A stretch of DNA of 64,000 bases from contig JACZYG010000013.1 of the NCBI GenBank assembly GCA_022571215.1, positions 1 through 64,000 of the forward strand, read 5' to 3'. Made by a program: the position numbers and the translations under genes. This DNA is from Fidelibacterota bacterium. Its GTDB lineage: Bacteria; Fidelibacterota; SORT01. Of this stretch, positions 26,661 through 30,453 are shown piece after piece. Under the pieces are notes generated by a model. That model ran no database searches, had not been told where the DNA came from, and saw nothing but the letters and a program-made list of their open reading frames with translations. Within the stretch, counting starts at the first letter, position 1. Each line of letters starts with the position of its first letter.

Positions 26661-27029
26661 TTATTCTGGAATTACCTCTTCTACCCTCTCTACTTCACTA
26701 TATTTTGGTATGTTCAACTCAAGCCATTGCTTAATTTCCTCTTCCGGAAGAGCGCCGATGAACTCTCCGGAAATTTCACCGTTAACAAACAGCTTGACGT
26801 TCGGTATACTGCGTATACCATATTTAACGGCTAAGTCCTGTTGAGATTCAGTATTGACTTTAATCAGGTTCCAAGTATCACCTGCCTCTTCGGCTAATTT
26901 TTCTAACGTCGGACTTAAATAGACGCATGGCCCGCACCAGCTCGCCCAAAAATCTACTAACACGGGCGTTGACTTACTTGCCTCTATCACATCTGATTGA
27001 AAATCAATCAGTTCTTTATCTATGTACAT
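26661..27029 (-). CDS. Thioredoxin
   Basis: A 122-aa thioredoxin with the intact active site WCGPC in VDFWASWCGPCVYLSP and the cis-proline segment IRSIPNVKLF. It reduces disulfides or helps in metal/thiol stress. The start at 27029 is chosen over 27053 because AAAGGAGAGG directly precedes it. It is divergent from the arsR-mer-like operon. The shared spacer carries two TTTGA/TCAAA palindromes, so it is probably controlled by the same ArsR-family protein. Confidence 0.93.
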   Translation of the reverse strand: MYIDKELIDFQSDVIEASKSTPVLVDFWASWCGPCVYLSPTLEKLAEEAGDTWNLIKVNTESQQDLAVKYGIRSIPNVKLFVNGEISGEFIGALPEEEIKQWLELNIPKYSEVERVEEVIPE

Positions 27030-27050
27030 TTTGCCTCTCCTTTTTCTATT

Positions 27051-27072
27051 CATTTGAATGTTCCTTCAAATG
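27051..27072. promoter_or_regulatory. Candidate ArsR-family operator, thioredoxin side
   Basis: A perfect inverted repeat CATTTGAA-N6-TTCAAATG lies just upstream of the thioredoxin gene. It shares the half-site ATTTGA/TCAAAT with the palindrome at 27193..27214, which lies before the regulator gene itself. Confidence 0.6.
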
Positions 27073-27146: not shown

Positions 27147-27175
27147 TTGACATAGTTACTTTTGAAACATATCTT
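27147..27175 (+). promoter_or_regulatory. Promoter of the arsR-mer-like operon
   Basis: TTGACA (27147..27152) and TATCTT (27170..27175) are 17 nt apart, a consensus -35 and a fair -10. Transcription would begin near 27182, just ahead of the operator at 27193..27214 and the GTG start at 27228. Confidence 0.65.
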
Positions 27176-27192
27176 CATATCATGCGTAAATC

Positions 27193-27214
27193 TATTTGAA
27201 ATATATATCAAATA
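27193..27214. promoter_or_regulatory. Candidate ArsR-family operator, operon side
   Basis: A perfect inverted repeat TATTTGA-N8-TCAAATA sits between the predicted transcription start and the regulator start codon, a place where a bound repressor would block elongation. Half-sites match those at 27051..27072. Confidence 0.6.
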
Positions 27215-27227
27215 CAAGGAAAATATT

Positions 27228-27617
27228 GTGACAATGGTAGCTGAAAATAATGTTGAACTGACAAACATAAACTGCACCCGCAAAGAGGTCGATATCGTAT
27301 TGCTTCAAGGGCTGCAACTCAAACTTTTGAAGAGACCGGATCTATCTGATATTGCAAAAATTTTCAGCACTATCGGCAGTGAAACCAGACTAAAGATTCT
27401 TTTTCTTCTATCTGAAGCGGGAGAACTTTGTGTATGCGACTTATCCGATATATTAGGACAATCTGTATCTCGGGTATCACATCAACTTAGAAAATTAAAG
27501 GACAGAGGATTTGTAAAAACACGCATTGATAGTCCTACTATTTACTATTCTGTCTCAAATAATTCATTTCCGAACATTCTGGTTAACTTTGTGAAAATGG
27601 GTGGCTTGAGTGATTAA
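27228..27617 (+). CDS. ArsR/SmtB-family metal-sensing repressor
   Basis: A 129-aa winged-helix regulator. GTG 27228 is taken as start because AAGGA lies 7 nt upstream, and the longer frame to TTG 27162 would begin inside the promoter. The metal-sensing motif ELCVCDL (Cys68 and Cys70) of the alpha-3 type ArsR/CadC group is present, with the recognition helix SVSRVSHQLRKLKDRG after it and one more Cys near residue 16. This is a thiol-based sensor, likely of soft metals such as mercury, arsenite, cadmium, lead or copper. It begins an operon with MerT-like, MerP-like and CopZ-type genes and probably represses the divergent thioredoxin. Confidence 0.9.
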   Translation: MTMVAENNVELTNINCTRKEVDIVLLQGLQLKLLKRPDLSDIAKIFSTIGSETRLKILFLLSEAGELCVCDLSDILGQSVSRVSHQLRKLKDRGFVKTRIDSPTIYYSVSNNSFPNILVNFVKMGGLSD

Positions 27618-27954
27618 TAGTTTATTTGCGTCATTCGGATCGATTTTCACTGCCCTTGTTGCGTCAAGTTGCTGTATTGGTCCATTAGCCTTCACTCTTC
27701 TTGGCGTCGGTGGTATAGGATTCGGCGCGAGTTTCGAGAAATATAGACCACTGCTAATAATCCTTACCTCAATTCTAATAGGCAGCTCCTACTATCTGGT
27801 TAACAGACCATTGGAAAAATTATGTATCGACGGCAAATGCGATATTGACAAGGCTGTCAAAACAAGGAAAATTAACAGGATCATACTTGGGATTTCCGCC
27901 GGAGCGGCAGTAGTTTTTATTTTTATTCCTCAAATACTGCTCTTGATAACTTAG
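27610..27954 (+). CDS. merT: MerT-like mercuric/soft-metal membrane transporter
   Basis: A 114-aa inner-membrane protein with three helices. Vicinal cysteines sit in the first helix (SSCCIGPLAFTLLGVGG, Cys21-Cys22), as in MerT. A cytoplasmic or loop pair lies in LCIDGKCD (Cys72 and Cys77), corresponding to the second MerT cysteine pair. It would hand metal ions from a periplasmic MerP-like carrier to the cytosol. GTG start overlaps the end of the regulator gene by 8 nt. No MerA reductase is seen in the window, so detoxification by Hg(II) reduction is not supported here; uptake or another metal is possible. Confidence 0.85.
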   Translation: MINSLFASFGSIFTALVASSCCIGPLAFTLLGVGGIGFGASFEKYRPLLIILTSILIGSSYYLVNRPLEKLCIDGKCDIDKAVKTRKINRIILGISAGAAVVFIFIPQILLLIT

Positions 27955-28005: not shown

Positions 28006-28368
28006 ATGAATAAAAAAACTTTAGTAATTGGTTTTTCGGTGATTGTTACACTGCTTTTTATAAGTACTCTATTCTCATCTAATGCTAATGAAATACTAAA
28101 ACGGGAATCTGTTATTTCTGCAATAACAAGTACAATCGAACTGGATGTCAAGGGGTTCACATGCACGAGTTGTGTGTACACAGCTAAGATCGTTCTTGAA
28201 GATCACGAAGGAGTTATATCGGCAGAAATTGATTATGGATCTGGAAAAGCATTAGTTAAATTTGATAACGAAAGGATTACGCCACAACAGATTGCAGATT
28301 TACTAAATGAAAATACACCCTATGTGGCTACGATCACCGGTGTTTCTCCTAAAACTCTATTAAATTAA
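28006..28368 (+). CDS. merP: MerP-like exported heavy-metal-associated protein
   Basis: A 120-aa protein with an N-terminal membrane/signal segment (about 5-24) followed by an HMA domain. The metal site GFTCTSC (Cys53 and Cys56) sits in IELDVKGFTCTSC and the domain continues with GVISAEIDYGSGKALVKFD. It likely binds Hg(II), Cu(I) or similar in the periplasm, tethered to the membrane or released. It follows the MerT-like gene by 51 bp and precedes a CopZ-type gene by 16 bp. Confidence 0.88.
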   Translation: MNKKTLVIGFSVIVTLLFISTLFSSNANEILKRESVISAITSTIELDVKGFTCTSCVYTAKIVLEDHEGVISAEIDYGSGKALVKFDNERITPQQIADLLNENTPYVATITGVSPKTLLN

Positions 28369-28384: not shown

Positions 28385-28936
28385 TTGGCTGAAACAAATA
28401 TCGAAAATGAACTGTTAGATTCATCAAACCCTGTTGAAGTTGATTCATGCGGATGCGTCGTTGTTCCGGAAATCATTGAAGCTCCACTAAAGGCTGAGTG
28501 TCCTCTTTCCGGTACTCTATCGAATAAAGTTCTTCACGAGACTCTTGATAACCTCGTCGTTCAGGATAAAAGGCATCTTATATCAGGAGAGGTTCAATAT
28601 TACTATTGTAACGAACCTGATTGTCCCGATGTCTATTTCTCGAACCCTGCCCGACATAGGTCAGGCGGGGAAGAATTACCTGTATTCGAGAAAAGCGACC
28701 TGATTGTAAAAGTGTTCTCGAAAGACAACGGTGAAGACGTACATGTTTGCTATTGTTTCGACTGGACAAGAAAACGATTAACAGATCAGATAAAGAACGA
28801 AGGTAAATCAACGGCATTCAATGAGATCACAGAAGAAGTAAAAGCTGGTCGGTGCGAGTGCGAAATTAAAAACCCGAAAGGCGCCTGCTGTCTGGGTGAC
28901 ATTCAGAACTTTCTGAAGGAATACAGTAATGCTTAA
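28385..28936 (+). CDS. CopZ-type Cys-rich metal-binding protein, copy A
   Basis: A 183-aa cytoplasmic protein matching the N-terminal domain of Archaeoglobus-type CopZ (zinc site plus a [2Fe-2S] cluster). Visible blocks are AECPLSGTLSNKVLHETL, YYYCNEPDCPDVYFS, HVCYCFDWTR and a closing RCECEIKNPKGACCLGDI. Here the HMA domain is separate (the MerP-like gene before it). The TTG start has a very strong ribosome site, AAGGAGGAAAGATT. Compared with its paralogue at 29935, it is eight residues longer at NPARHRSGGEE, exactly where a dispersed palindromic repeat (28646..28670) is inserted in frame. Its stop overlaps the next start by 8 nt. Confidence 0.85.
   Translation: MAETNIENELLDSSNPVEVDSCGCVVVPEIIEAPLKAECPLSGTLSNKVLHETLDNLVVQDKRHLISGEVQYYYCNEPDCPDVYFSNPARHRSGGEELPVFEKSDLIVKVFSKDNGEDVHVCYCFDWTRKRLTDQIKNEGKSTAFNEITEEVKAGRCECEIKNPKGACCLGDIQNFLKEYSNA
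28646..28670 (+). repeat. CCCGACAT-type dispersed repeat inside a gene, copy 3
   Basis: The 25 bases open CCTGCCCGACATAGGTCAGG and close CGGGG. They match the intergenic copies at 8485..8509 (minus strand) and 159..178. The repeat lies within the CopZ-type gene and adds eight residues that the paralogue lacks. Confidence 0.65.
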
Positions 28937-29885
28937 AAAACTCTTTTTCTTATTCAGTGTCCTACTGATTTTTAATTCATCCCCGGCATGGGGACAGTGA
29001 CCCCTCTGAGGGAACTTAACGCTTCCGGTCGGAAGCTCAATTGAAGGTGTAGGTCTTCTTAAGAATCAGATTCTCGTCGGGAGCGCGGGAACGTTCACGC
29101 ATGCAGCCGAGCTAATCGGCACTGGCAATAACAGCGCTGAATTAGGAAATTCAGGAAATCTTGACATAACCCAATTCAATCTGTTTGCGGGCTATGGGAT
29201 TTCAAGTCTTATTAATTTGTATGCCAATTTGCCTGTTAAGCGTATATCTCAAAATCCCACGATCGAAAACAAACATCATAGATCTGAAAGTCTTACCGGA
29301 ATTGGGGATATACGAATAAGTCTTAAATGGGTCATAAGGAACCAATATTTAGGTCCCGGCTGGCGACTCTTCTTTGGTTTGGGCCTTATCGTTCCGACAG
29401 GAAATTCTTTTAACGACAATCCCTTTTCAGATAGTGCAGATTCCAAAGACCACAGGCACTTTGCTCTTGGCAATGGAACTCAACAGGCTGACATTTCACT
29501 GGAAGCATGGCACAGATCAGAATTTCCGTTTATATTGGGAGCGACTATCAGGCATGGCATCTATTCTTCAACGAGCAACGTTAGCTATAAACCGGGTTTA
29601 AGCACTAAAATAACTATTCATGCCATCAAACAACGAGGAATTTTCAAGAATGCTTTTCCATATTTCAAACTTACGACCCGATTTAATAGAAAAGACGAGT
29701 GGCAGAAAATAATTCCTCCAAACTCCGGCGGAACTTTTATTGATGGAATGGTAGGCTTTAATCTTGAAATTAACGAAAGGGTTTCAGCTGTCATTAATTT
29801 TGATTTTCCTATATGGAAGTCGGTGACCGGTGAACAATTGGATTCGTTTAGATTCGTTTTCTCGTTCAGACGAATTATTAATTGA
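28929..29885 (+). CDS. Candidate selenoprotein: outer-membrane protein with U-x-x-U
   Basis: A 318-codon gene whose frame is open from ATG 28929 to 29885 except for TGA at 28998..29000 and 29007..29009. Codons 1-23 form a clean signal peptide (MLKKLFFLFSVLL, ending PAWGQ). The TGAs then fall at positions 24 and 27, giving U-P-L-U-GNLTLPVGSS at the mature N-terminus. The rest is a beta-barrel-like outer-membrane protein with long amphipathic strands. ATG overlaps the stop of the upstream CopZ-type gene by 8 nt, so the start is well fixed. A hairpin (29021..29036) lies 17 nt past the second TGA. A U-x-x-U pair replaces what would be a CxxC metal or redox site. Alternatives are a decayed gene or sequence error. 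Confidence 0.72.
29021..29036 (+). promoter_or_regulatory. Candidate bacterial SECIS element, outer-membrane protein gene
   Basis: A perfect 6-bp stem GCTTCC/GGAAGC closed by the tetraloop GGTC. The loop lies 17 nt after the second TGA and 26 nt after the first, both inside the usual range for a SelB-recognised element. GGUC is the loop of the Escherichia coli fdhF SECIS. The bulged U of the fdhF stem is not seen here. Confidence 0.65.
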
Positions 29886-29934: not shown

Positions 29935-30453
29935 ATGCATGAATGCTGTACTGTTCCAATAGAACAGATGATGGCAAACGAACACAAACCGGATGGAGTC
30001 TGCTGCCTTATCTCGGATGTGACGGAAGCTCCGCCTCGCGCCGACTGTCCTGAATCCGGTACCGGTTCACGAAAAATCCAGCGCCGCACAGTCGAACACC
30101 TCGTAAAACCCGAGCAAGCGGGGGATATTATCGATACACAGTATTACTACTGCGCAGCAGCTGATTGCCCGGTAGTCTATTTCTCTCAGGATGGCGCAAG
30201 CAAATTCACCACGGAAGACCTACGAGTGGCGGTTTTCGCGAAAGACCCGGGTAAAGATGTGAACGTCTGTTATTGCTATGATTGGACCCGGTCACGCATA
30301 GAAAACGAGATTAAGGAAACAGGAGTTTCGACGGCTTCGCAAAAAATTGCCGAGAAGGTAAGAGCCAGTTTATGCGAATGTGATATTAAGAATCCGAAGG
30401 GAACTTGCTGTCTCGGGGACATCAACAGAGTAGTGGCGGCATTTCAAGAATAA
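29935..30453 (+). CDS. CopZ-type Cys-rich metal-binding protein, copy B
   Basis: A 172-aa paralogue of the protein at 28385..28936. The start at 29935 is chosen because GGAGCA precedes it and the longer frame would overlap the outer-membrane protein. The N-terminal part carries extra cysteine pairs (HECCT and GVCCL). The CopZ blocks follow: ADCPESG, YYYCAAADCPVVYFS, NVCYCYDWTRS and LCECDIKNPKGTCCLGDI. The two copies flank the candidate selenoprotein, so the operon encodes two similar metal or Fe-S chaperones, perhaps with different metals or partners. No HMA domain is fused. Confidence 0.85.
   Translation: MHECCTVPIEQMMANEHKPDGVCCLISDVTEAPPRADCPESGTGSRKIQRRTVEHLVKPEQAGDIIDTQYYYCAAADCPVVYFSQDGASKFTTEDLRVAVFAKDPGKDVNVCYCYDWTRSRIENEIKETGVSTASQKIAEKVRASLCECDIKNPKGTCCLGDINRVVAAFQE

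Follow-up and report, generated by a model that had tools for sequence, protein, structure and literature searches.

The DNA analysed here (the window: 64,000 nucleotides, positions 1 to 64,000 of contig JACZYG010000013.1 from a Fidelibacterota bacterium) carries a plus-strand run of six genes in the order ArsR, MerT, HMA (MerP-like), CopZ-type, UxxU channel, CopZ-type (Table 1), with a thioredoxin gene close by at 26661-27053 on the minus strand. The neighbours of the channel gene support the metal-operon setting that an original prediction, made from the letters alone, had proposed for it. The channel gene's ATG lies within the gene upstream, the two sharing 8 nt up to the upstream stop (TAA, 28934-28936), so that the start is fixed as had been predicted; a hydrophobic leader ending in AWG before Q follows, then two TGA codons three codons apart, and beyond these the frame is open as far as the final TGA. 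The mature protein is predicted to begin Q-Sec-Pro-Leu-Sec (QUPLU), and the Q is invariant across the channel family. A standard ORF list begins the gene only at TTG 29217 (29217-29885, 222 aa): ordinary annotation would truncate it.

Table 1. Features of the UxxU channel locus, all on the plus strand.
Feature	Position	Strand	Basis and remarks
ArsR-family repressor, first operon gene	27162..27617	+	PF01022, 67 bits
MerT-type inner-membrane metal transporter	27610..27954	+	PF02411, 49.6 bits
Exported/anchored HMA-domain (MerP-like) protein, CTSC motif	28006..28368	+	PF00403, 34.9 bits; NF041115, 56.5 bits, below the cut-off of 95
CopZ-type iron-sulfur cluster-binding metallochaperone	28385..28936	+	NF047645, 109 bits, over cut-off; stop overlaps start of the putative selenoprotein
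Putative UxxU outer-membrane channel selenoprotein CDS	28929..29885	+	318 aa; Sec at TGA codons 24 and 27, stop at the last TGA (29883-29885); translation, 73 two-TGA homologues, dN/dS about 0.16
Predicted signal peptide	28929..28994	+	residues 1-22, ...SSPAWG before Q; hydrophobic stretch, AxG before Q
TGA codon 24 (putative Sec 1)	28998..29000	+	Cys instead in L095 and Bacteroidota homologues
TGA codon 27 (putative Sec 2)	29007..29009	+	Cys instead in L094 and Bacteroidota homologues
SECIS-type hairpin GCTTCC-GGTC-GGAAGC	29021..29036	+	also encodes LPVG(S); covariation, folding, SECIS rules
Second CopZ-type metallochaperone, directly downstream of the channel	29935..30453	+	NF047645, 125.7 bits, over cut-off

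Elsewhere in the window TGA works as a normal stop, terminating 17 of the 47 long ORFs there, and an alternative genetic code is thereby excluded. A protein search found matches to the channel in 81 of the 245 genomes of the window's phylum: 73 have exactly two TGAs within the match, at identities from 77% down to about 25%, and two have one. TAA or TAG occurs at the two Sec places in none of the 73, one of which also has a TAA elsewhere in the match. A pair that recurs in dozens of independent assemblies cannot be a product of sequencing error, and this recurrence, with the covarying hairpin described below, bears out the prediction that the two TGAs are no coincidence. The translated loci share the motif Q-U-x-[LM]-U-x-N-x-[ST]-[LM]-P-[VG]-G, whose N-terminal part, Q-U-x-x-U-x-N-P, is conserved more strongly than any other stretch of the protein. 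Against its two nearest relatives the window gene gives dN/dS of 0.11/0.67 and 0.18/1.02, the ratio being about 0.16 on either side of the TGAs, with the part behind them comparably constrained.

Homologues with Cys at either place, or at both, were to be looked for according to the original prediction, and they occur at exactly these positions. Some 85,000 species genomes were scanned with a pattern requiring TGN at both Sec places; filtering with the family HMM left 68 true homologous sites (66 UxxU, one CxxU, one UxxC, no CxxC), all assigned by record title to Marinimicrobia/Neomarinimicrobiota apart from six with other titles. The single Sec-to-Cys swaps within the phylum read UALC (L094) and CSLU (L095), and tandem paralogues read QCALU (L057, L058) and QCAMC (L065). 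The double-Cys form is found also in distant homologues that a profile search of 396 genomes of another phylum detected in Bacteroidota. The residues matched exclude the N-terminus; the homologues' own N-termini, AQACPACSNPALQ, have both Cys at the Sec places, CPAC standing at the UxxU position in four genomes (L201, L202, L203, L204), and the HHRxE and HxH motifs are shared. Profile-profile comparison (hhalign) of the Marinimicrobia and Bacteroidota families gives E 2.7e-18, with homology over the whole length, and the family has no conserved Cys other than at the Sec/Cys pair. No match to the channel was found in a plasmid collection by tblastn, nor in a first protein scan of the genome contigs.

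We found no secure case of the UxxU form beyond Marinimicrobia. Pattern matches in Prevotella, Chryseobacterium, Buchananella, Deltaproteobacteria, Doudnabacteria and Chloroflexi records show no homology and are due to chance. The six oddly titled contigs, L120, L145, L149, L151, L161 and L191, sit in MAGs named Methylococcales, Flammeovirgaceae, bacterium MED-G176, Bacteroidetes, Rhodobiaceae and FCB group. The first four look like binning or labelling errors, since their flanking genes resemble Marinimicrobia loci; the motif of L191 is that of L061 (G183), and L161, a contig of 3.5 kb, offers little to judge by.

The tandem paralogues lie directly behind the UxxU gene (CALU at L057:7179-8054 minus and L058:8289-9164 plus, CAMC at L065:8148-9029 plus) and carry PPPPVGG or PPPPAGG; the CALU forms retain the GGTC loop, which the CxxC form has lost. 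In all three loci the same gene run continues with a DUF3179-like protein and a barrel-like exported protein starting GQACC, whose Cys-Cys at the mature N-terminus may mark a second family with an N-terminal thiol pair. Another paralogue, at about 6921 plus in L108 (G160:C58), has a single TGA (QVSURRPVLPVG), with neither Cys nor Sec at the first place, and keeps a hairpin, CTACC-GGTC-GGTAG.

In the window the apical loop of the hairpin lies 17 nt after the second TGA and 26 nt after the first. The original prediction had given these distances for the hairpin as such; they hold for the loop and not for the stem, which starts 11 and 20 nt after the TGAs. Folded computationally, as had been proposed, the isolated hairpin reaches -9.4 kcal/mol (z -3.4), and none of 200 shuffled sequences did as well. 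Its stem covaries, synonymous wobble-wobble pairs included: among 75 sequences the Pro-wobble/Val-wobble pair is always either G-C (53) or A-U (22), and the Leu-wobble/Gly-wobble pair takes six standard pair types, with 96% pairing. Over 64 distinct rows the doubly changed cells numbered 112, where shuffles gave 38 +/- 5 (0 of 500 as many). Relatedness is ignored by these shuffles but not by the slid controls, in which the signal collapses. The conserved LPVG peptide is best explained as a by-product, in the coding sequence, of the hairpin, reflecting a constraint on the RNA rather than on the protein, because two sequences in which Val has become Gly still have a loop of the form A-GG-U, and because the CxxC paralogue and the Bacteroidota CxxC homologues, which need no SECIS, are without the GGTC/AGTT loop or the motif. 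Rfam models few bacterial SECIS families, and the lack of a match to the hairpin at its gathering cut-offs is therefore uninformative. The published bSECIS rule asks for a loop of 3-9 nt with G in the first two loop positions, N1-N2 pairing in a loop of the form N1-G-[G/U]-N2, a UGA-to-loop distance of 16-37 nt and an MFE of at most -7.5 kcal/mol (PMC13188914). With its loop GGUC, this one hairpin satisfies the rule for both UGAs, and may serve both.

The machinery for Sec insertion, for which the original prediction had proposed a search, is all present in the same assembly, which is 96.7% complete: SelB (338 bits against a cut-off of 242), with a SelA gene, identified by its place in the operon and its sequence rather than by a model search, directly in front of it; tRNA-Sec (66 bits against 47); and SelD (353 bits against 125), itself of the Sec type, with an in-frame TGA in its classic GGUACK site. 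Across the phylum SelB exceeds its cut-off in 166 of 245 genomes; of the 16 carriers of the UxxU gene in which it does not, ten have a strong tRNA-Sec and the other six are incomplete. From these data we infer that both UGAs are read as Sec, and are close to certain that the gene encodes a selenoprotein. On nearly every point concerning this gene the prediction proved right.

That the product is an outer-membrane barrel, also predicted, is supported by modelling. AlphaFold2, given 33 sequences, returned a barrel of about 12 strands (pLDDT 88.1, pTM 0.82), the first of them at residues 48-60 and 77-90, with no thioredoxin fold. The best PDB matches by Foldseek are FapF (E 1.6e-13) and the COG4313 channel 4rl8 (TM 0.75). 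By sequence the relationship is faint: a PDB sequence search gave no significant match for the channel, and for PF13557 (Phenol_MetA_deg) the window protein scores 23.4 bits against a cut-off of 22, one of 33 family members matching. We thus propose that the channel shares the FapF/COG4313 fold, as the models indicate, and claim no membership of either family. The UxxU segment has pLDDT below 50 in both models, that of the mature form included, and appears as a flexible N-terminal tail, so that its place in the channel has to be judged from a distant relative, the solved COG4313 channel. There the N-terminal residues, about 14 of them, occupy the barrel lumen on the periplasmic side (PMC4493636); by analogy the Sec pair probably lies at or in the periplasmic mouth.

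Metal genes recur around the family. ArsR, MerT(P), CopZ, MerA-type or HMA genes are found near 20 of 60 loci, all 20 in the sub-clade near the window, and in five loci, four of which are not among these 20, a MerP-like HMA lipoprotein is encoded shortly downstream. Pelagic copies are mostly outside mer-type operons, and no MerA was found near the window's UxxU gene in the part of the window searched (20-40 kb). The Bacteroidota CxxC copies directly follow a periplasmic HMA-thioredoxin fusion; one, in L203, lies in an ArsR-MerTP-MerA operon, with MerA over the NCBIfam cut-off, and the others are accompanied by a CsoR-type repressor, a copper-type P-ATPase or a multicopper oxidase. With Marinimicrobia loci and Bacteroidota CxxC copies both beside metal genes, the link to metals holds across two phyla, for Sec and Cys forms alike. 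Mercury is plausible as one substrate among others; in view of the missing MerA and of the pelagic copies mostly lacking mer genes, we do not claim it specifically.

Two further candidate Sec genes were seen near UxxU genes. In L063, L067, L071 and L073 (e.g. L071:10676-12067 minus) a pyridine-nucleotide-disulfide oxidoreductase has the motif GGTUVNEGC, absent from the 2026 selenoprotein table, in which TGA replaces the codon of the first redox-active Cys; a hairpin, AGACCTT-GTT-AAGGTCT, follows. This flavoprotein does not appear to be MerA: its best NCBIfam model is dihydrolipoyl dehydrogenase, with MerA fourth. In L076, near 7677 plus, a gene for an HMA-domain protein whose metal-binding loop reads GMTUHSC (UxxC) lies between the UxxU channel and a multicopper-oxidase-like gene, downstream of the former.

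The reading we think the most probable, and put forward with reasonable though limited confidence, is that of a double selenoprotein: a channel of the FapF/COG4313 fold whose selenolate pair would bind soft metal and exchange it with HMA/MerP proteins. Both UGAs would be decoded by SelB and tRNA-Sec with the single hairpin placed for both; after export and cleavage of the signal peptide the protein would form a 12-stranded outer-membrane channel, its Q-Sec-x-x-Sec carried on an N-terminal segment that enters the barrel at its periplasmic end, as in solved COG4313. There the selenolate pair would bind soft metal very strongly, might also be redox-active, and would exchange an ion such as Hg(II) or Cu(I) with HMA/MerP-type proteins of the periplasm. 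These may hand the ion on to MerT and the CopZ-type chaperones, with ArsR controlling the system, while a thioredoxin partner would keep the selenolate pair reduced. Transport might run inward, towards MerT/MerA, or outward; co-transcription with MerT slightly favours an inward relay. As to the pair itself, we lean, by a little, to its being a soft-metal ligand or gate that works with the periplasmic HMA/MerP proteins. The fuller proposal, of a Se-dependent outer-membrane gate for soft metals that forms a dedicated outer-membrane stage of mer-like handling, its selenolates binding Hg(II)/Cu(I) and exchanging them with the HMA/MerP relay, is more tentative, and we would not quite stake an even wager on it.

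A different role for the same selenoprotein deserves weight, though we would not ourselves expect it: UxxU may work as a diselenide/diselenol redox centre, such as a thiol-oxidoreductase partner or a switch for opening the channel, with metal binding incidental. Among selenoproteins the redox motif is usually a CxxC/UxxC pair (PMC13188914), and the HMA-thioredoxin fusion in front of the Bacteroidota copies, the thioredoxin gene near the window's own copy and the pelagic copies without mer genes all fit such a function. The channel, however, has neither a thioredoxin fold nor any other conserved Cys, and its recurrent neighbours are metal-binding and transport proteins and ArsR/CsoR-type regulators, not electron-transfer chains.

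Explanations that dispense with Sec fare much worse. Decoding of UGA as another amino acid, by Trp insertion or near-cognate suppression, with the hairpin, close behind the UGAs as it is, acting as a general readthrough signal, is very improbable: UxxU-type relatives have Cys as the counterpart, never Trp, the loop obeys the N1-G-[G/U]-N2 rule with N1 and N2 paired, and the genome encodes the full SelA/SelB/SelD/tRNA-Sec set. We give practically no weight to the view that a pseudogene in decay has acquired two nonsense mutations, or that the assembly is in error, for which the sole support is that standard gene callers see stops at codons 24 and 27; the conservation of the same two TGAs, never TAA or TAG, in 73 genomes, purifying selection on both sides of them, the covarying hairpin and the Sec machinery rule this out. 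Equally negligible is a true start after the TGAs, with UGA a stop and the N-terminus a leader peptide: TTG 29217 does open an ORF, which would however lack the signal peptide and first barrel strands as well as the most conserved part of the protein, the one with Cys counterparts.

Known systems resemble the channel in part. The FapF/COG4313 channels (PDB 5o65/5o67/5o68 and 4rl8; Foldseek E 1.6e-13 and 9e-11, TM (target) 0.6-0.77, identity 12-17%) share the 12-stranded beta-barrel with an N-terminal segment before strand 1; they differ in serving hydrophobic uptake or amyloid export rather than standing in a metal operon, and the paper on the COG4313 structure names no cysteine or disulfide (PMC4493636) where our channel has its N-terminal Sec/Cys pair. 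The NF041115 UxxU metal-binding selenoprotein and Sec-MerT families (PMC13188914) share the double Sec or the mercury-transport setting, but consist of small HMA-domain proteins or of MerT in the inner membrane; the channel itself has no NCBIfam match at E <= 1, NF041115 included. GSU2204 (an MtrB/PioB barrel) and the FCYXU TonB-dependent receptor (PMC13188914) are likewise outer-membrane proteins with Sec, but belong to other families, with a single Sec and other motifs. The Bacteroidota CPAC homologues, alike over their full length and in mer or copper operons, differ in having Cys for Sec, no SECIS-type hairpin and the HMA-thioredoxin fusion in front. Nothing matching the channel family was found in the 2026 catalogue of 119 prokaryotic selenoprotein families (PMC13188914) or in NCBIfam release 20, and no description of it in the open-access literature, an earlier description elsewhere being possible. 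It is thus apparently a new, undescribed selenoprotein family, with a decoding mechanism that is not new.

The channel adds a widespread double-Sec family to Marinimicrobia (SAR406), a phylum of mostly marine genomes with few cultured members, and one that gene callers taking UGA as a stop would miss or shorten. It also offers a clean case of one SECIS-type hairpin positioned for two UGAs. In two mer reviews (PMC3466566, PMC8261052) Hg crosses the outer membrane without a dedicated Mer protein; the gate proposed above, if real, would add to that scheme a dedicated outer-membrane stage. The family suggests that metal-detoxification operons can hold such an outer-membrane component, in which Sec and Cys ligand pairs interchange, and a cultivable CxxC relative would make its role in metal handling testable.
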